64,000 bases of DNA from Acidimicrobiales bacterium. Lineage in GTDB: Bacteria > Actinomycetota > Acidimicrobiia > Acidimicrobiales > Aldehydirespiratoraceae. The stretch spans positions 3,614,263 through 3,678,262 of the forward strand of contig JAWPML010000001.1 of NCBI GenBank assembly GCA_033344915.1. The letters are read 5' to 3'. The position numbers and the translations under genes are program-made. Numbering within the stretch: the stretch's first letter is position 1; every line of letters starts with the position of its first letter. This document shows, piece after piece, positions 56,067 through 64,000 of this stretch. The notes below the pieces were generated by a model. It had not been told where the DNA came from. It saw only the letters and a list, made by a program, of their open reading frames with translations, and did no database searches.

Positions 56067-57734
56067 GTGCGAGTTCGCCACGTCATTCCCACGGTCGGGC
56101 CGTCGGCTCCCGCCGATCTCGTGGCCGCTCAGGAGATGACCCTCCGCTCGGTCGAGCGGGCCGTGCGGTGTGCTGATCCGAGCCTCGATGTGGACGTGCG
56201 GGCCGTGCACTTCCCCGACGAACCCGTCGACGCGCCCTGGCTCACCGACATGCCCATCCTCGACCGTTCGATCCTCGACCTCGGCGAGTTCGTGCGTCCC
56301 CGCCGGCTGCCGCTGCTGCCCGATGTGCTGGCCGGATTCGGTGATCCCGACGACTACGACGTCGCCGTACTCACCAATGTCGACATCGCCGTGCAGCCGC
56401 TGTTCTACGACCTGGTCCAGAGCATCACCGGGGACGGCTACGACGCCTTCTCGATCACTCGCCGGACCGTGCAGCCGGCGTTCGGCGGCAGCTCACTCGC
56501 ACGGTTGGCGGCGACCGAGGGCACCGTCCATCCCGGTCACGACTGTTTCGTGATGTCATCTGCGCTCGTGGCGCGGATGGATCCCGGCGATGCGGCACTC
56601 GGGGTGCGCTGGGTCGGGCGGACGCTGCTGTGGCAGCTCCAGTTGTGTGCGTCGCGGTATCGCACCTTCGGCGATCTCCACGCGACCTTCCACATCGGCG
56701 ACGACCGGGTGTGGGTCGACCCGGACCTGGCCGACTACGACCGCTACAACATTGCGGTGGCGCGTCGGCTCGTGGAGCGGCTGCTCGAGGAGCACGGCCG
56801 TGCCCGGGTCTCGCGGTTGGTGAGCGTCGCGCCGTTCCTCGATGCGATCGACGACGGTGGCGAGGTCGTCACCCGGCCGGCACGAGAGACCACCTTCCCC
56901 GTCGGCGCCCGGCCGCCCGCCGGGGGAGCCCAGCGCCTCATCTTCTCCGCCAACGCCGGTCGGTCGGGGTCCGAGTATCTTGCGGAGCTGCTCGGCTCGT
57001 CGCCCACTGCGGACGGCGGCCACGAACGCGAACCGACGATGACGGGTCCCTGGTGGCGCCGAACCCTCTACGAGGACCCCCGCCTTTCCTACGCGGACCG
57101 GCGGGTGAAGACGGACATCATCCGGGGCGAGCTGGACACGATGCTGCCCGGCCGGGCCTACGTCGACACGTCGCACATGTTCGTGAAGACCTTCGCCGAC
57201 GTGGTGTTCGACGACTTTCCCCACGACCTCATCTCGGTGGTCGTCCTCCGTCGTGATCCTCTGGAGGTCGCCCGGAGCTACTTCGAGCTCGACTTCTGCG
57301 GCATCCGTTCGCGGCCGTGGATCGACTGGTTCGGCGTGCCGACCGCGCCGTTCGCGGCGTTTCGCGCCGAACCCGAGGAGATCACCGACCAGTTCGATCT
57401 CATCTTCAGCGCCCTGGTGGACTTCGAGATGCGGACGGCCGCGTTGCGGGCGGTCACCCCGGCCGTGCGGTGGGTCGACGCGAAACTCGACGAGATCACG
57501 ACGGTCGATGGTGCCGGCGAGCTCTTCGATGCCCTCGGCCTCCGTCCGCCCGCGGATCTGGAGGCGGCGGTGAGCCGGCGGGTCAACGTCCGGAGCCGGC
57601 GAAAATCGGAGCTCGAGCAGCCCGTCGACCTCGGCTATGTGAGCGACCGGGCGGAGGACTTCTTCAACCGGTTCGACCATCGCGAGGAGGTCCAGCTGTT
57701 CCGGCGGCTCCACTGGACGGCGGTGGCGGCGTGA
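56067..57734 (+). CDS. Two-domain protein: GT-A-like N-terminus plus sulfotransferase C-terminus
   Basis: 555 residues from the GTG at 56067. Residues 1-230: an N-terminal domain resembling nucleotide-sugar transferases (HVIPTVGPSAPADLVAAQEM; VAVLTNVDIAVQPLFYDLV, an NxD-like motif in place of DxD). Residues 285-555: a PAPS-dependent sulfotransferase with the 5'-phosphosulfate loop FSANAGRSGSEYLAELL (about 291) and 3'-phosphate site VVVLRRDPLEVARSYFEL (about 390). The combination of the two folds suggests one protein adding a sugar and sulfate, or binding a glycan while sulfating it. It begins the cluster and overlaps the next gene by 4 bp. Confidence 0.75.
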   Translation: MRVRHVIPTVGPSAPADLVAAQEMTLRSVERAVRCADPSLDVDVRAVHFPDEPVDAPWLTDMPILDRSILDLGEFVRPRRLPLLPDVLAGFGDPDDYDVAVLTNVDIAVQPLFYDLVQSITGDGYDAFSITRRTVQPAFGGSSLARLAATEGTVHPGHDCFVMSSALVARMDPGDAALGVRWVGRTLLWQLQLCASRYRTFGDLHATFHIGDDRVWVDPDLADYDRYNIAVARRLVERLLEEHGRARVSRLVSVAPFLDAIDDGGEVVTRPARETTFPVGARPPAGGAQRLIFSANAGRSGSEYLAELLGSSPTADGGHEREPTMTGPWWRRTLYEDPRLSYADRRVKTDIIRGELDTMLPGRAYVDTSHMFVKTFADVVFDDFPHDLISVVVLRRDPLEVARSYFELDFCGIRSRPWIDWFGVPTAPFAAFRAEPEEITDQFDLIFSALVDFEMRTAALRAVTPAVRWVDAKLDEITTVDGAGELFDALGLRPPADLEAAVSRRVNVRSRRKSELEQPVDLGYVSDRAEDFFNRFDHREEVQLFRRLHWTAVAA

Positions 57735-58441
57735 AACCGATCTGGTTCGTGTATCACGTCCCCAAGACCGGGGGGCAGTCGATCCGCGACCACCTGGCGT
57801 CCGAGTTGACGCACGAGGTCGACTATCTGCACCTCGGCAAATGGGACCGCCCCGAGCCACTGACGATCGACGACCTCGCCGCGATGTCCGACGCGGAGCG
57901 GGCCGAGCTGCGAGCGATCAGCGGTCATCCCGTCGAGCGACCCATGGCGCAGTTCTTTCCCGGCCGGCCGTTGCGGGAGGTCGTGATCCTGCGCGAGCCC
58001 GCCGCCCGGCTGGTGTCGCTCTACAACTTCAACATGACCATGTGGGCGCAGCGGGGCAAGGCCGTGATCGGATTCGAGGAGTTTCTCGACACCCTCCCGC
58101 CGAACCAGATGACGGCGAAGCTCACGGGGTGTTTCGGGTTCGAGCGGCTCCGCTTCCGTCTCGACGATCTCCTCTACGAGCTCAGTCAGCTCTGGCTCGT
58201 CGGACGGACCGAGAACCTCGACGCGCTTCTGCCCCTGTTGTTCGCCGGGATGGAGGTCAGCACCGAGCTCGCCGGACGGTCGAACGTGACCGGTGTCCAC
58301 ATCGAGAAGCGGCTCGAACTCACCCCGGACCTGGCCGCCGATCTCCGAGCCCGCAACCCGACCGACGTGAAGCTCTACGCGGCCGTCGAGCGGCTCGAAC
58401 GCGCCTGCATCGCCCGGCTCCGCGGGGCTGGGCCGCCCTGA
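57731..58441 (+). CDS. Sulfotransferase (Sulfotransfer_2 type)
   Basis: 236 residues from the GTG at 57731. 5'-phosphosulfate loop FVYHVPKTGGQSIRDHL near the N-terminus and 3'-phosphate site REVVILREPAARLVSLYNF at about residue 80. The arrangement is close to carbohydrate 2-O and heparan-type sulfotransferases (Sulfotransfer_2, PF03567). It transfers sulfate from PAPS to a sugar hydroxyl, probably at the membrane or in the cytoplasm; no signal peptide. Overlaps the upstream gene (GTGA). Confidence 0.82.
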   Translation: MKPIWFVYHVPKTGGQSIRDHLASELTHEVDYLHLGKWDRPEPLTIDDLAAMSDAERAELRAISGHPVERPMAQFFPGRPLREVVILREPAARLVSLYNFNMTMWAQRGKAVIGFEEFLDTLPPNQMTAKLTGCFGFERLRFRLDDLLYELSQLWLVGRTENLDALLPLLFAGMEVSTELAGRSNVTGVHIEKRLELTPDLAADLRARNPTDVKLYAAVERLERACIARLRGAGPP

Positions 58442-58502: not shown

Positions 58503-58961
58503 ATGACTTCCCACATCGACCGCATGCGGACCCGAAATGTTCGCGCGGTCCTCCAGATCGGCGCGGCTGCTGGTGTCGTCGCCGCAGTCGGGCTCGCGTT
58601 CGTGGATGACGACCTGGCCCGGGCCGGCGCCGTCGCGCTGCTCGGCGGCGTGATTCTCGTCGTCCTGAAGGCCTCGATGGTGGCCGCACAGGCCGCGGCG
58701 ACCGTTCGACCCGTGGCGGCCGCACCTCCGGCCGCGTCGCCGACCGAGGTGCGCGAGTTGCGGGCCGAGCACGAGGCGCTGCTCGCCGAACATCGCCAGT
58801 CCCAGGCGGAGATCGTCGAGCTGCGCGACCGACTCGAGACCGTCACCTCGCTGGCCCGCCGGATCGAGCCGTCGGTGGCGGAGAGCGCGACGCTGCGCCA
58901 CGAGATGACCTACCTCCGCGAAACCGTCGAACGCCTGGACCGCACGAACGGCTCGGGCTGA
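58503..58961 (+). CDS. Membrane protein with C-terminal coiled coil
   Basis: 152 residues. Two hydrophobic segments (VLQIGAAAGVVAAVGLAFV and AVALLGGVILVVLKASMVA) are followed by an Ala/Pro linker and a coiled coil (VRELRAEHEALLAEHRQSQA and later helices) extending to the C-terminus. It may tether the sulfotransferases to the membrane. No enzyme motif. It lies 61 bp after one sulfotransferase gene and 17 bp before the next. Confidence 0.7.
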   Translation: MTSHIDRMRTRNVRAVLQIGAAAGVVAAVGLAFVDDDLARAGAVALLGGVILVVLKASMVAAQAAATVRPVAAAPPAASPTEVRELRAEHEALLAEHRQSQAEIVELRDRLETVTSLARRIEPSVAESATLRHEMTYLRETVERLDRTNGSG

Positions 58962-58978: not shown

Positions 58979-60094
58979 GTGACCTCGGACGCGGTGGGTG
59001 ATGTCGATTTCCTGCTCGCGCGGTTCGAGGAGAACCGGGCTCTTCGGCGCCGGGCGGCCGTCATCGAGGACCTCCGCGAGATCGTGACCCGTGCGCCCGA
59101 CCGGCTCACCGATCGCCTCGTGCTCGCCCGCTACACCGAGCAGCGGGGCGTGCCCGACGAGTCGGGTCGGGTCTTCGACGCCTGTCTCGACGAGCTGTCG
59201 CGCGATGGCCTGCTCGCCGGGCCGCTGATGAGCGCCTTCCTCCGCAACGCCCACTTCGGCGCCGACCCGGCCGTCACGGTCACCCGCATGGAGCGGTTGG
59301 CCGAGGTGTTGGACCTCCTCGCCGACCGACCCGGCCAGAACCCACGGATCATCGCGATTTCCCGGTGCCGCGTCCTGCTGGCCCTCCGCCGCCGTGACCC
59401 GTTCGTCGCCGCCGTCGAGGTCGCGCACGAGCTTGCGCCGTCCAACCGCATGGTGGTCGAGCTCGCGGACCTGGCCGCCCGTTGGAGCGCCCCGACCTTT
59501 CCGGACCGGGAGGCCGGCAAGGTGTTCGTGATCGGCCTCAGCCGTACGGGCACGTCCTCGATGCACCAGGCGCTCGAAGCCTGTGGCCTTCGCAGCGTGC
59601 ACTGGGTCAACCGCCTGACCGGGGCGCTGCCCGACACGTTCGACCACCATCTGTACGACGCGTTCAGCGACATCAACATCAGTGCGAGCTTCGAGTCGCT
59701 CCACGCCCGCTTCCCGTCGGCCCGCTTCATTCTGACGCAGCGCCCGCGGGAGTCGTGGGCGCGCTCGGTTGCGGCGCACTACGGGAACTACGCCGGGATC
59801 ACCGAGCCCCGGGAACTGCTGGCGCCGGCCCACGAGCGGCGCTTCGGTGGTCGCTACGGGGAGATCCATGCGTCGCTGTACGCGAACCATCCGACGTGGG
59901 AGGCGGCGTACGACGCTTTCCACGAGCGGGTCGACGCGTTCTTCGCGGACAAGCCCGGATCGCTGTTGCGGATCTCGGTGACGGAGGGCGAGGGGTGGGA
60001 ATCGATCGGCCCCTTCCTCGACCTCGCCACGCCGGACGTGCCGTTCCCCCATGCCAATGCCGCTCCGGTCGAGCCGGAGCCCGCTCGTGCCTAG
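58979..60094 (+). CDS. Sulfotransferase with an N-terminal helical-repeat domain
   Basis: 371 residues from the GTG at 58979. Residues 1-170 are helical and TPR-like (DLREIVTRAPDRLTDRLVLAR and more). The sulfotransferase part has KVFVIGLSRTGTSSMHQAL at 180-198, the 5'-phosphosulfate loop, and FILTQRPRESWARSVAA at about 249, the 3'-phosphate site. It resembles the NAD-dependent-epimerase-like sulfotransferase family (Sulfotransfer_4). Overlaps the next gene by 8 bp. Confidence 0.8.
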   Translation: MTSDAVGDVDFLLARFEENRALRRRAAVIEDLREIVTRAPDRLTDRLVLARYTEQRGVPDESGRVFDACLDELSRDGLLAGPLMSAFLRNAHFGADPAVTVTRMERLAEVLDLLADRPGQNPRIIAISRCRVLLALRRRDPFVAAVEVAHELAPSNRMVVELADLAARWSAPTFPDREAGKVFVIGLSRTGTSSMHQALEACGLRSVHWVNRLTGALPDTFDHHLYDAFSDINISASFESLHARFPSARFILTQRPRESWARSVAAHYGNYAGITEPRELLAPAHERRFGGRYGEIHASLYANHPTWEAAYDAFHERVDAFFADKPGSLLRISVTEGEGWESIGPFLDLATPDVPFPHANAAPVEPEPARA

Positions 60095-61181
60095 CGAACC
60101 GGATCTCGACGACCCGACCTCACGGGTCCGGAACCTGCGGGTGGCCGGGTCGGAGGCGCTCCGCCGGGGTGACGTGACGGACGCTCGCGCCCTGTTCGAG
60201 GAGGCGCTCGCGACCAAACCGGGTCACGCGGCTGGCCTCGCCGGCCTCGCTCGCTGTGCCCAACGCGATTCGGAGTGGGACACGGCCGCCGACCTGTGGG
60301 GCGCCGCTCGTGCCGCGGCGCCGGGCGCCCGCCATCCGAACTGGCATCGGCGTCACATCACGACCCTGCTCCTGGCGGGTCGCGGCGACGAGGCCCGTCG
60401 CGAGATCGAGGCGTTCTGGGGCGCCACCGATCTGCGTCGCGCGTATCGGGCCGCGACCCGCAACGTCGCCGACGGCACCCACGAGCGCCTGCGGTTCGAC
60501 CATGTTCTCATCGTCACCTACGGGCGGAGCGGGTCGACGCTGCTCCAGGGGATGCTCAACACGATCAACGGCCTGCTGATCCGGGGCGAGAACGGCAACG
60601 TGTTCCACGACTTCTTCCGGGCGGCGCGGGGGCTCGAGGAGAATCGCCATCGTTCGGGAAGCTCGTTCGCGCCCTACTCGGCGTGGTTCGGGATGGCGGA
60701 GATGAGCACGCTGCGCCTGGCCGACGAGCTGCGTCCCACGGCCCGGCGGATGCTGCTCGGCAACGACTTGGACGATCCGGCGGTGCGGGCGATCGGGTTC
60801 AAGGAGATCCGCTACCTGGACGTCCAGGACGACCTCGTCGACTATCTCGCGTTCCTCGAGGATCTCTTCCCGAACACGGCCTTCGTGTTCAACACCCGGG
60901 ATCCGGCCGAGACCGTCGCGAGCGGCTGGTGGGTCGACGAGGATCCCGCCGTCGTATCCGCGCGGATCCACGACCTGCACGACCGGTTCACGGCGTTCGC
61001 GGCGGCGCGGTCGAACTGCTTCTCCATCGACTACCACGACGTCGTGGGCACCACCTCGAGACTGCAGGAGCTGTTCGCCTTCCTCGGCGCCGAGTTCGAC
61101 CAGGCCCGAGCGGACGCCGTGCTCGCCGTGTCGCACAGCTACGGTCCGGACGACCCGGACGACTCCGAGCCCGCGTCATGA
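60087..61181 (+). CDS. Sulfotransferase with an N-terminal TPR-like domain
   Basis: 364 residues from the GTG at 60087 (an ATG at 60051 would overlap the previous gene by 44 bp; the GTG gives the 8-bp overlap also seen at 19530). TPR-like repeats fill 1-125 (AGSEALRRGDVTDARALFEEA, GLAGLARCAQRDSEWDTAAD). The sulfotransferase domain has HVLIVTYGRSGSTLLQGML at 139-157 and FVFNTRDPAETVASGWW at about 265. It overlaps the next gene by 4 bp (ATGA). Confidence 0.82.
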   Translation: MPSEPDLDDPTSRVRNLRVAGSEALRRGDVTDARALFEEALATKPGHAAGLAGLARCAQRDSEWDTAADLWGAARAAAPGARHPNWHRRHITTLLLAGRGDEARREIEAFWGATDLRRAYRAATRNVADGTHERLRFDHVLIVTYGRSGSTLLQGMLNTINGLLIRGENGNVFHDFFRAARGLEENRHRSGSSFAPYSAWFGMAEMSTLRLADELRPTARRMLLGNDLDDPAVRAIGFKEIRYLDVQDDLVDYLAFLEDLFPNTAFVFNTRDPAETVASGWWVDEDPAVVSARIHDLHDRFTAFAAARSNCFSIDYHDVVGTTSRLQELFAFLGAEFDQARADAVLAVSHSYGPDDPDDSEPAS

Positions 61182-61921
61182 AGAGTCGGATCGACTTCCT
61201 CGTCGCGGGCAACCAGAAGTGTGGGACGAACACGTTGCACGACCTCCTCGCCCAGCACCCGACCGTGCGCATGTCGTCCCCGAAGGAGATGCACTACTTC
61301 GACCGTGCGTCGTTCGCCGACTGCGAGGACGCGCACCGCGACTACCACCGACGGGGGTGGGCTGTCGGTGAGGAGGGCCTCGACGAACAGCTTCTCTACG
61401 GGGAGTCCACGCCGAAGTACGTCCTCTTCCGGCCGTCGGGGGAGCCTCGCTACCTCCCGAGGATCCGCGCCTACAACCCCGCCATCAAGCTCGTCGTGCT
61501 GTTCCGCGATCCGGTCGAACGGGCCTACTCGCAGTGGAACATGCTGCGCGATCGGGGCCGCGCGGTGCCGCCCTTCGAGGACATCGTCGACGCCGCGCTC
61601 GATGCCTCCGCCGAGCGCTCGCCCTGGGCGGACGTGATCGACCGGGGTTGCTACGGGCGGGTCGTCTTCAACCTGCTGTCGCTCTTCGCGCCGGAGCGCT
61701 GCTGCTTCGTCAAGGTCGACGACCTCAACCATCAGGTCGACGTCGTCGAACGGTTCCTCGGGATCGAGCCGTTCGACTACGAGCCCCGCTACAGCTACGC
61801 GCTCGAGTACGAGTCGCCCCTCGCGCCGGCGGTGGGGGAACGACTGCGGGGCCACTATCGCGCCGAGATGCACATCTTCAGTCGACTGACCGGCCTCGAC
61901 GTGGACGACTGGGTGAACTGA
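61178..61921 (+). CDS. Sulfotransferase (Sulfotransfer_1, N-sulfotransferase-like)
   Basis: 247 residues. 5'-phosphosulfate loop DFLVAGNQKCGTNTLHDLL near the N-terminus, then KEMHYFDRAS, TPKYVLFRPS, and 3'-phosphate site VVLFRDPVERAYSQWNM at about 105. The pattern is that of PF00685 N-/O-sulfotransferases acting on glycosaminoglycan-like chains. ATG at 61178 overlaps the previous gene stop; the next gene starts on the last base of its stop (TGATG). Confidence 0.85.
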   Translation: MKSRIDFLVAGNQKCGTNTLHDLLAQHPTVRMSSPKEMHYFDRASFADCEDAHRDYHRRGWAVGEEGLDEQLLYGESTPKYVLFRPSGEPRYLPRIRAYNPAIKLVVLFRDPVERAYSQWNMLRDRGRAVPPFEDIVDAALDASAERSPWADVIDRGCYGRVVFNLLSLFAPERCCFVKVDDLNHQVDVVERFLGIEPFDYEPRYSYALEYESPLAPAVGERLRGHYRAEMHIFSRLTGLDVDDWVN

Positions 61922-63708
61922 TGACCTCTGATGTGGTGGGCGTGGAGACCGGAGCGCTGATCGACGAGATCGGGGCCATGGAGGCACGCGGCGACAGTGC
62001 CGCCGCCCTCGACCTGGCACTGACGGCGCTCGAAGGATCGCCGCAGGATCCCGAGCTGATCGCGGTCACCTGCGGTCTGCTCGACTCGTGGGAGCGATTC
62101 GACGAATCGCTGGCCATCGTCGACGGGGCCACGGGTCTCGACCCGCGGCAGGCCGCGGTGCTGCGGGCCGCGACCTACGGCGCGATGAACAGCCTCGGCG
62201 AAGCGCTCGCCCTGTCTCGCGAGATCCACCGGGCCGATCCGACCGATCGTCGGGCGCGGTTCGACTACGTCCGCATGCTCATCCGCACGGGCGAGTTCGA
62301 CGAAGCCGACCGCGAGATCGCCGAGTTCGCGGCGATCCATCCGCGGGGCAATCACTGGAAGCTTCGCATCCACTGCCTCAACGCCCAGCAGCGCCGCTTC
62401 GAGGGGCTGGAGGTCGCGGAGGAGGCGTGGTCGACCCGGCCCGGCAAGGTCGACTGCCTGCGCACGGTGCTGCGTCAGCTCCACAAGTGCATCCAGAAGG
62501 ACCGCAGCGTCGCCGCCCGGCACCGCGCCAAGGAGCTGCTCGACGGGCTCGGGGCGGAACCGGTGGCGGACACCAACTCGTTGCGGCTGTTCATCCGCCT
62601 CGCCGTCAGCCTCGGACGCGATGAGCAGGCGAAGCAGCTGCTCGCGTCGGACACCGCCCGCTCGCGGCCCGGCTACTTCCGCCGCGAACGGGCCTGGGTT
62701 GCGGCCGAGGCCGGGCAGGTCGACGAGGCGCGACGGATCTGGGACGAGATCCGCACGACGGAGCCGGTGCCGACGATCCGCCCGTGCCGCCCGGACGAAC
62801 TCGATCGGCTCGACCGCCATCCCATCCCGGAGCCCGCGGGTGAGATCCGGCTCTTCACCGTGATTCGCAACGAGCGCTGGCGGCTGCCGTGGTTCCTCGA
62901 TCACTACCGGGCGCTCGGCGTCGACCGGTTCTTCTTCGTCGACAACGACTCGACCGACGGCTCCCGGGAGTGGCTCCTGACGCAGCCGGACGTCCACGTC
63001 TTCCACACGACGACGCCCTACGCGATCGGCCGTTCCGGCATGGTCTGGGTGAACCATCTGGTGGGCGCGTTCGCGACCGACGGATGGTTCATGTACGTCG
63101 ATGTCGACGAGGCGCTGGTGTTCGACGGTGTGGAGACGCGGGGGTTGCGCGACCTCACCGCGTACATGGAGCGTGAGGGCCACGACATGGCGACCGGGCA
63201 GATGATCGACATGTTCTCGGTCGAGGAGAACGGCATCCCGGCGGGTGGTTTCGAGCACGACTTCATCGCCCGCTATCCCCACTTCGATCTTTCCTACGAA
63301 CGCACGCCGACCGTGCAGTGCCCCTACTTCTTCACGTCCGGCGGCATCCGCCGGCTCGTCGGGACCGGGGAGAACCAGACCAAGACACCGCTCATCCGTG
63401 GCGGGCGCAACATCCAGTTCCTGTCGAGCAGCCACATCGTGACGCCGGGTGTGGTCTCCGATGCCGAGGTCGCGCTGTTGCACTTCAAGCTCGCTGGTGA
63501 CTATCGCGCCCAGTTCCGCGACGACGGCGAGGCCAACGACCGAGTGGGCGAGTGTCGGCTCCGCTATCAGGCCTACGCGGACTTCTTCGAGTCGTGGGCC
63601 GGTGGAGCGGACGCGGTCGCGTCGTCGTCGACCACCGTTCGCTACGCGTCGAGCCGCTCGCTGGTGGATGTCGGCCTGCTGGCGCCGTTGCCCGACGGGT
63701 CCACATGA
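61921..63708 (+). CDS. TPR protein fused to a glycosyltransferase (Glyco_tranf_2_4 type)
   Basis: 595 residues. TPR-like repeats occupy 1-290. From about residue 309 (IRLFTVIRNERWRLPWFLDHY, then FFFVDNDSTDGSREWLL) the protein is a GT-A glycosyltransferase with the DxD motif in WFMYVDVDEALVF near residue 391. It probably adds a sugar to the acceptor that the neighbouring sulfotransferases decorate. Overlaps both neighbours. Confidence 0.82.
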   Translation: MTSDVVGVETGALIDEIGAMEARGDSAAALDLALTALEGSPQDPELIAVTCGLLDSWERFDESLAIVDGATGLDPRQAAVLRAATYGAMNSLGEALALSREIHRADPTDRRARFDYVRMLIRTGEFDEADREIAEFAAIHPRGNHWKLRIHCLNAQQRRFEGLEVAEEAWSTRPGKVDCLRTVLRQLHKCIQKDRSVAARHRAKELLDGLGAEPVADTNSLRLFIRLAVSLGRDEQAKQLLASDTARSRPGYFRRERAWVAAEAGQVDEARRIWDEIRTTEPVPTIRPCRPDELDRLDRHPIPEPAGEIRLFTVIRNERWRLPWFLDHYRALGVDRFFFVDNDSTDGSREWLLTQPDVHVFHTTTPYAIGRSGMVWVNHLVGAFATDGWFMYVDVDEALVFDGVETRGLRDLTAYMEREGHDMATGQMIDMFSVEENGIPAGGFEHDFIARYPHFDLSYERTPTVQCPYFFTSGGIRRLVGTGENQTKTPLIRGGRNIQFLSSSHIVTPGVVSDAEVALLHFKLAGDYRAQFRDDGEANDRVGECRLRYQAYADFFESWAGGADAVASSSTTVRYASSRSLVDVGLLAPLPDGST

Positions 63709-64000
63709 CGACGCGGGGCCGGTTTCCGGGCCGCAACGCATCGTTCTCGACCGAGCGCGGCTTCGTCTGGCACCGGGTGGCGAAGACCGGCACCCGCAGT
63801 CTGCACGCCCTGCTCGAGGCGGAGGTCGCCGACTACGAGTACCTCATTCGCAAGCAGCCACCGCCTCCGGCGTTCGACGAACTCCTGGCGACGACGTGCT
63901 TCCGTTTCACCTTCGTGCGCAATCCGTGGGATCGGCTGGTCTCGGGGTGGCGGAACAAGTTCGTCACCGGTCGAAAGGCCGAGAGCTTCCTGGCCCAGCT
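63705..64000 (+). CDS. Sulfotransferase (Sulfotransfer_2 type), C-terminus outside the window
   Basis: 98 residues visible. FVWHRVAKTGTRSLHALLE near residue 20 is the 5'-phosphosulfate loop and FTFVRNPWDRLVSGWRNKF near 70 the 3'-phosphate site. It starts at ATG 63705, overlapping the previous gene by 4 bp, so the cluster continues to the right of the window. Confidence 0.85.
   Translation, partial: MTTRGRFPGRNASFSTERGFVWHRVAKTGTRSLHALLEAEVADYEYLIRKQPPPPAFDELLATTCFRFTFVRNPWDRLVSGWRNKFVTGRKAESFLAQ

Follow-up and report, generated by a model that had tools for sequence, protein, structure and literature searches.

The gene at 56067-57734 (+) of the window, which is the whole stretch of 64,000 nucleotides analysed here, was found to be a single open frame of 555 codons with a GTG start and a TGA stop. 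Its product joins a GT-A domain to a sulfotransferase-like domain, as the first-pass annotation had proposed, and the same two parts are joined in an ortholog of equal length and 88% identity (L002:3259-4926) from Acidimicrobiales bacterium DHS20C19. The fusion gene is the first of a same-strand run, within which four genes overlap the preceding gene by 1-44 bases. The parts of the fusion and the genes that follow it are listed below; domain and linker boundaries are our own.

56067..57734, + strand: whole fusion gene, single frame
56067..56816, + strand: N-terminal GT-A domain (N-domain), residues 1-250, assigned from the AlphaFold2 model and GT-A structure matches
56817..56930, + strand: linker, residues 251-288, 74% identity to L002
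56931..57731, + strand: C-terminal sulfotransferase-like domain, residues 289-555, assigned from a profile match to related sulfotransferases (set A6, below)
57731..58441, + strand: sulfotransferase-like neighbour, overlapping the fusion by 4 bases (Sulfotransfer_2, 14.3 bits, below the cut-off of 22)
58503..58961, + strand: small protein of 152 aa, by eye with two hydrophobic stretches and a coiled coil
58979..60094, + strand: sulfotransferase (Sulfotransfer_4, 102.4 bits, cut-off 22.8)
60051..61181, + strand: TPR and Sulfotransfer_3 protein (41.5 bits, cut-off 27)
61178..61921, + strand: sulfotransferase (Sulfotransfer_1, 38.4 bits, cut-off 22)
61921..63708, + strand: TPR and glycosyltransferase protein (Glyco_tranf_2_4, 91.3 bits, cut-off 27.5)
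63552..64000, + strand: sulfotransferase with an uncertain start (Sulfotransfer_2, 38.2 bits, cut-off 22, on 63654-63998), crossing the window end and ending at L022:464

Pairwise comparison of the window gene with L002 (Nei-Gojobori method, own script) gave dN/dS values of 0.095, 0.147, and 0.127 for residues 1-250, the linker 251-288, and residues 289-555, respectively, against 0.158-0.321 in the six other cluster genes compared, the N-domain thus having the lowest value among the parts compared. Both halves of the protein are under purifying selection, and the low dN/dS over all parts indicates that the frame is coding throughout and that the fusion is no sequencing artefact. A chance or artefactual open reading frame was ruled out by these values together with the full-length ortholog. 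The cluster gene order recurs in DHS20C19 with one extra gene inside.

Two minor observations concern this neighbourhood. The small protein at 58503-58961 is encoded by the fastest-changing gene compared (dN/dS 0.321). The extra gene of DHS20C19 (L002:6187-7200, +) and another at L003:1506-3659 (+) contain, by eye, a ParB-like GxHR stretch; such genes lie beside N-domain genes or inside the cluster, gave no Pfam match (two of three scanned), and are absent from the window's cluster.

Fold and signature of the N-terminal domain

Library searches with the fusion gene returned no family from Pfam, either for the whole gene at E up to 1 or for each half separately at E up to 10, and no NCBIfam model over its cut-off (a single stray match had E 0.11); a search of PDB sequences at E up to 10 was likewise empty. 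Structure prediction was informative for the N-terminal half. AlphaFold2 on residues 1-265, run from a 13-row alignment, reached a pLDDT of 86.7 and a pTM of 0.87, and the model retrieved GT-A structures with both Foldseek (E from 1.2e-6) and VIA-align (Z up to 15.0). The best VIA-align matches, tied within one Z unit, were K4 chondroitin polymerase (2z86, residues 432-682; Z 15.0), CgT (5hea; 14.9), 6p61 (14.8), WrtF fucosyltransferase (9omm; 14.4), and SpsA (1h7l; 14.4), aligned over 174-214 residues at 8-10% identity. On the evidence of this model, the N-terminal half has a GT-A fold, as its earlier likening to nucleotide-sugar transferases had anticipated. The GT-A structures named share the fold of the N-domain and differ from it in that the usual motif of their class is DxD instead of N-x-D, and in that none is listed as fused to a sulfotransferase.

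Pyrophosphorylases have a glycine-rich N-terminal signature. A sugar nucleotidyltransferase of this kind would have the same fold, and chains of GDP-mannose pyrophosphorylase appear among the Foldseek matches from rank 13 onwards. However, the signature was not seen in the N-domain, and, judged by title, the 50 VIA-align matches listed are glycan synthases or glycosyltransferases, so that we regard such an identity as very improbable and keep to a glycosyltransferase.

Three conserved elements were mapped onto the domain:

56376..56384, + strand: N104-V105-D106, N-x-D motif in place of DxD, following modelled strand 99-103 (31-row conservation)
56529..56546, + strand: H155-P-G157-H-D159-C160, conserved loop, candidate G-loop and acidic residue
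56691..56693, + strand: H209 of TFHIGDD, candidate metal-binding C-terminal His

GT-A enzymes share the DxD motif, an acidic xED residue, a G-loop, and a C-terminal His (PMC7185993). In the window protein, VLTNVDI corresponds to residues 101-107, and from the modelled strand 99-103 just before the motif, rather than from a superposition, we infer that N-x-D occupies the place of DxD. The T/S-N-x-D motif was followed across 31 aligned members, in which the Asp (D106) is present in all 31 and is preceded at position 104 by Asn in 30 and by Ser in one, the first Asp of DxD being absent from these rows. G157 is likewise invariant (31/31), while H155, D159, C160, and H209 are each present in 30 of the 31 rows. 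The sole exception at N104, H155, D159, C160, and H209 is one and the same fused copy (L039), from the order of a Bacteroidales MAG, which reads SSPD, is without H155, D159, and H209, and has a sulfotransferase half in which no P-loop is seen. This copy is likely a pseudo-enzyme, and the joint loss of these residues where the family decays suggests that they are working parts in the other copies. Its gene (L061:6692-8479, -) has lost motif residues from both halves and is still an open frame of 595 codons.

The first-pass annotation had read the Asn as a sign that the domain may bind a sugar and not transfer it. Such a pseudo-transferase would keep the GT-A fold, bind a glycan or nucleotide-sugar, and present it to the sulfotransferase, a reading consistent with the missing first Asp, with the decayed L039, and with the precedent of pseudo-glycosyltransferases such as COSMC, which is without DxD and xED (PMC7185993). 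Nevertheless, Asn is the norm in stand-alone copies too (30/31), the last Asp is invariant (31/31), the His and the Asp of the other elements are kept in 30 of 31 rows, the N-domain has the lowest dN/dS among the parts compared, and active GT-A families in which DxD is changed or lost are known (PMC7185993). We therefore consider the pseudo-transferase unlikely and the reading of binding without transfer probably wrong: judged from the alignment, NVD is a family signature, N-x-D, rather than a damaged DxD. The motif invites the misreading, and what it marks is the family; it is no evidence of a dead enzyme.

The C-terminal half and its relationship to sulfotransferases

Two candidate PAPS-binding elements were recognised in the sequence of the C-terminal half:

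56946..56981, + strand: SANAGRSGSEYL, residues 294-305, P-loop-like, candidate 5'-phosphosulfate loop of the RxG type
57237..57281, + strand: VVVLRRDPLEVARSY, residues 391-405, candidate 3'-phosphate-binding motif, aligning with VVRHPGDFVRSA of A6

We take VVVLRRDPLEVARSY to resemble the 3'-phosphate motif of sulfotransferases. The best separate relative of this half in the 12 genomes searched, besides the window and L002, was a gene of genome G1242 (E 1.4e-4). This gene and two like it (L055:6702-7547, L056:984-1823, and L021:1392-2231, together forming A6) all pass the cut-off of Sulfotransfer_3 (PF13469; 3/3), and a profile comparison of the window and L002 C-terminal halves (A5) with A6 gave a match of 90% probability and E 1.7e-6 over 183 columns. 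On this profile match the C-terminal half is placed as a divergent relative of the PAPS-type sulfotransferases, below Pfam detection, and its initial assignment to that class is upheld. With the Sulfotransfer_3 enzymes, of which the A6 genes are the nearest, it shares the profile match and the RxG-type 5' loop, and it differs from them in escaping Pfam and in being joined to a GT-A domain; the RXG motif has been described in Sulfotransfer_3 enzymes (PMC11625862). AlphaFold2 on this half, from a two-row alignment, gave a pLDDT of 38.6, and the window protein was not alike to the sulfotransferase adjoining the N-domain gene at locus L005.

A P-loop protein that has lost sulfate transfer or uses another donor would agree with the lack of any Pfam match, PF13469 included, at E up to 10, with a clear likeness limited to the 5' loop (34 residues), and with the decay of such a half in L039. 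The profile match extends across 183 columns, however, the half has a dN/dS of 0.127, and sulfotransferases are encoded by the next genes, all of which makes this reading improbable and favours a sulfotransferase.

The N-domain family and its pairing with sulfotransferases

The 24 relatives of the N-domain were compared with model libraries at E up to 0.01, where one of them gave a weak match to Glycos_transf_2 in Pfam (E 0.0086) and the other 23 gave nothing, where NCBIfam returned beta-lactamase models only, which were taken for chance, and where 13 relatives matched nothing in PHROGs; PDB sequences gave no convincing match. By these searches, the N-domain belongs to a family absent from the Pfam, NCBIfam, and PHROGs models. 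The family was found in Acidimicrobiales, in the class of an Aminicenantes MAG, in Bacteroidales, and on viral contigs. The stand-alone copies, mostly 250-320 residues long, share 28-37% identity with the window domain; they come from a Bacteroidales MAG, an Acidobacteriota MAG, the Aminicenantes MAG (three copies), other genomes of its class, and viral contigs. The 24-copy count includes a part copy cut by a contig end (C874) and leaves out three short G1241 fragments (C233, C341:2773-2883, and C531); the 24-row alignment A3 contains nearly the same set, with viral L006 replacing C874. No second count was made of L043 (the protein of L042), L048 (the contig of L006), or the repeat loci L007-L011 and L014.

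Whole-protein relatives were found in 1 of 296 genomes of the window's own class. Relatives were present in 1 of 396 genomes of its phylum, in 2 of 247 and 1 of 247 genomes of the phyla of G298 and G296, respectively, in 7 of 142 genomes of the class of G298, and in 3 of 198 of the order of G296, in sets that overlap and counts that each include the centre genome. One scan of genome contigs matched 43 stretches, four of which were relatives. Protein searches against phage and plasmid records gave no match, and scans of viral sequences with three queries (the whole protein, its C-terminal half, and the L006 copy) recovered only L006 itself. A distant second N-domain relative on a viral contig (L045:1494-2315, +; E 1.3e-14), also with a TNSD motif, stands outside every count.

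The pairing of N-domains with sulfotransferases is general and recurrent. Across 12 genomes with 24 N-domain copies, PF13469 was matched within 1 kb of 15 copies (0.16 expected) and within 10 kb of 22 (1.05 expected). These expectations are Poisson values calculated with rounded genome sizes, and the copies cannot be treated as independent, since G741 and G1250 nearly duplicate each other and paralogs occur in the same clusters. All 15 close matches lie downstream of the N-domain on the same strand: nine in a separate gene directly after the domain (96-179 bases between matches), four in the same open reading frame, and two with another N-domain gene between. Among the nine copies without PF13469 within 1 kb are the window and L002 copies, where the model misses the protein's own C-terminal half, and two copies, in G296 and G1292, with no PF13469 match on the contig. 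In G1242, three bases separate the stand-alone N-domain gene L055:5844-6698 from the sulfotransferase gene L055:6702-7547, and the window protein is thus the counterpart of two genes that lie side by side elsewhere.

Fusion to a sulfotransferase half was found in six of the 24 copies, namely those of the window, L002, L026, L034, L018/L019, and the decayed L039. By blastp among 21 chosen proteins, with E-values that hold for that small set, the halves of the window protein and L002 were nearest to L055/L056/L021 (best E 1.5e-6), that of L026 to L020:1088-1840 (3.7e-21; weaker likeness to L019, 9.6e-12), those of L034 and L019 to L057:4910 and L005:14240 (about 1e-55 to 1e-57), and that of L039 to L019/L034 (about 1e-50). 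The fused halves thus have their nearest relatives in three different stand-alone sulfotransferases from related clusters, which suggests repeated fusion, in about three events. The N-domain tree requires four changes, with L039 placed uncertainly, and the AU test does not reject a single fusion origin (p 0.20); the case for several fusions comes from the sulfotransferase side, which suggests what the N-domain tree alone does not prove. In two close genomes, proteins of about 970-1000 aa (L019:4847-7858, -, and L062:8169-11078, -) combine the N-domain and Sulfotransfer_3 with a third part of some 300 residues that has no Pfam match, and a similar part ends the neighbour L062:4228-6987.

Predicted role in sulfated-glycan assembly

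The window protein is best explained, with somewhat better than even confidence, as a bifunctional glycosyltransferase-sulfotransferase of sulfated-glycan assembly, both activities being predicted, and the fusion probably helps to build a sulfated sugar polymer. A nucleotide-sugar would serve as donor to the N-terminal GT-A domain, which would transfer the sugar at an N-x-D metal site where H209 assists D106, and the C-terminal domain would place sulfate from PAPS on the same growing glycan. The simplest target of sulfation would be the newly added sugar or an adjacent one, and one chain would thereby couple glycan extension with sulfation. The analysis establishes the fusion itself, the GT-A fold, the conservation of the candidate active-site residues, the relationship to sulfotransferases, and the repeated pairing, whereas activity in both halves, their action on a common glycan, the acceptor, and the donor class are inferred. 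Weighing against this reading are the Pfam-negative C-terminal half with its poorly scored model, the Asn at the first Asp of DxD, the seven or more copies with no adjoining PF13469 match, the AU result, and the lack of any exporter or polymerase recognised by eye near the cluster. PAPS can be made in the window's genome, since an APS kinase is present. The fuller proposal, in which a family outside the Pfam, NCBIfam, and PHROGs models has an N-x-D metal site and is repeatedly fused to different PAPS sulfotransferases, and in which the window protein is truly bifunctional, adding a sugar and sulfating the product in one chain, is put forward tentatively, at slightly below even chances.

Both halves may instead be active on different acceptors or steps, the fusion merely keeping two cluster enzymes together as an operon does neighbours. 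Several genomes hold both as separate adjacent genes, and the fused sulfotransferases are of different lineages, which implies no single acceptor. The same order in every fusion and the recurrence of fusion fit coupled steps better, although they are not decisive, and we give separate acceptors a rather low probability, retaining coupled extension and sulfation as the preferred explanation.

NDST-type enzymes of heparan sulfate likewise join a sulfotransferase domain to another domain that modifies glycans; that domain is a deacetylase, whereas the partner in the window protein is a glycosyltransferase. No description of a glycosyltransferase-sulfotransferase fusion was found in the open-access literature searched, in agreement with the initial remark that the combination is not known from established bifunctional enzymes. 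Each enzyme class is familiar by itself; what is new to the libraries searched is their combination and the family. Glycosyltransferase and sulfotransferase genes share one cluster in xss (synechan) of Synechocystis and in the capsule cluster of Cobetia marina (PMC8205485, PMC11766843). Those clusters are described there as having separate genes and as including polymerisation or export genes, whereas inspection by eye of the surroundings of the window's cluster, covering the ORFs of 50-64 kb and the following 40 kb, revealed no recognisable flippase, polymerase, or exporter. These results assign a fold and a signature to an unannotated glycosyltransferase family and give it a likely setting, namely the sulfated glycans of several bacterial groups and viruses, and the fusion points to single proteins coupling chain growth with sulfation, which would be useful for making defined sulfated polysaccharides.

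Other loci of the family have related gene content. On viral contigs, the N-domain gene of L047 is followed by five tandem Sulfotransfer_2 genes (L047:3111-6365, +), the L044 copy adjoins a GDP-mannose 4,6-dehydratase and a C-methyltransferase, and the L040 copy adjoins an epimerase; the dehydratase, C-methyltransferase, and epimerase speak for nucleotide-sugar chemistry. The Aminicenantes locus encodes an ABC-2 permease, a Wzt-type ATPase, two sulfatases, and a radical-SAM/SPASM protein. The two sulfatases (L021:3450-7801, -), which have N-sulphoglucosamine sulphohydrolase-like C-terminal domains, and the radical-SAM/SPASM protein (L021 2246-3493) are encoded beside N-domain genes. Beside the three-part fusion of L019, a protein of 1060 aa (L019:1654-4836, -) has a family 2 glycosyltransferase domain and a C-terminal NKWYS domain, annotated as putative capsular polysaccharide synthesis and sulfotransferase-like by eye, and is another joined glycan enzyme.
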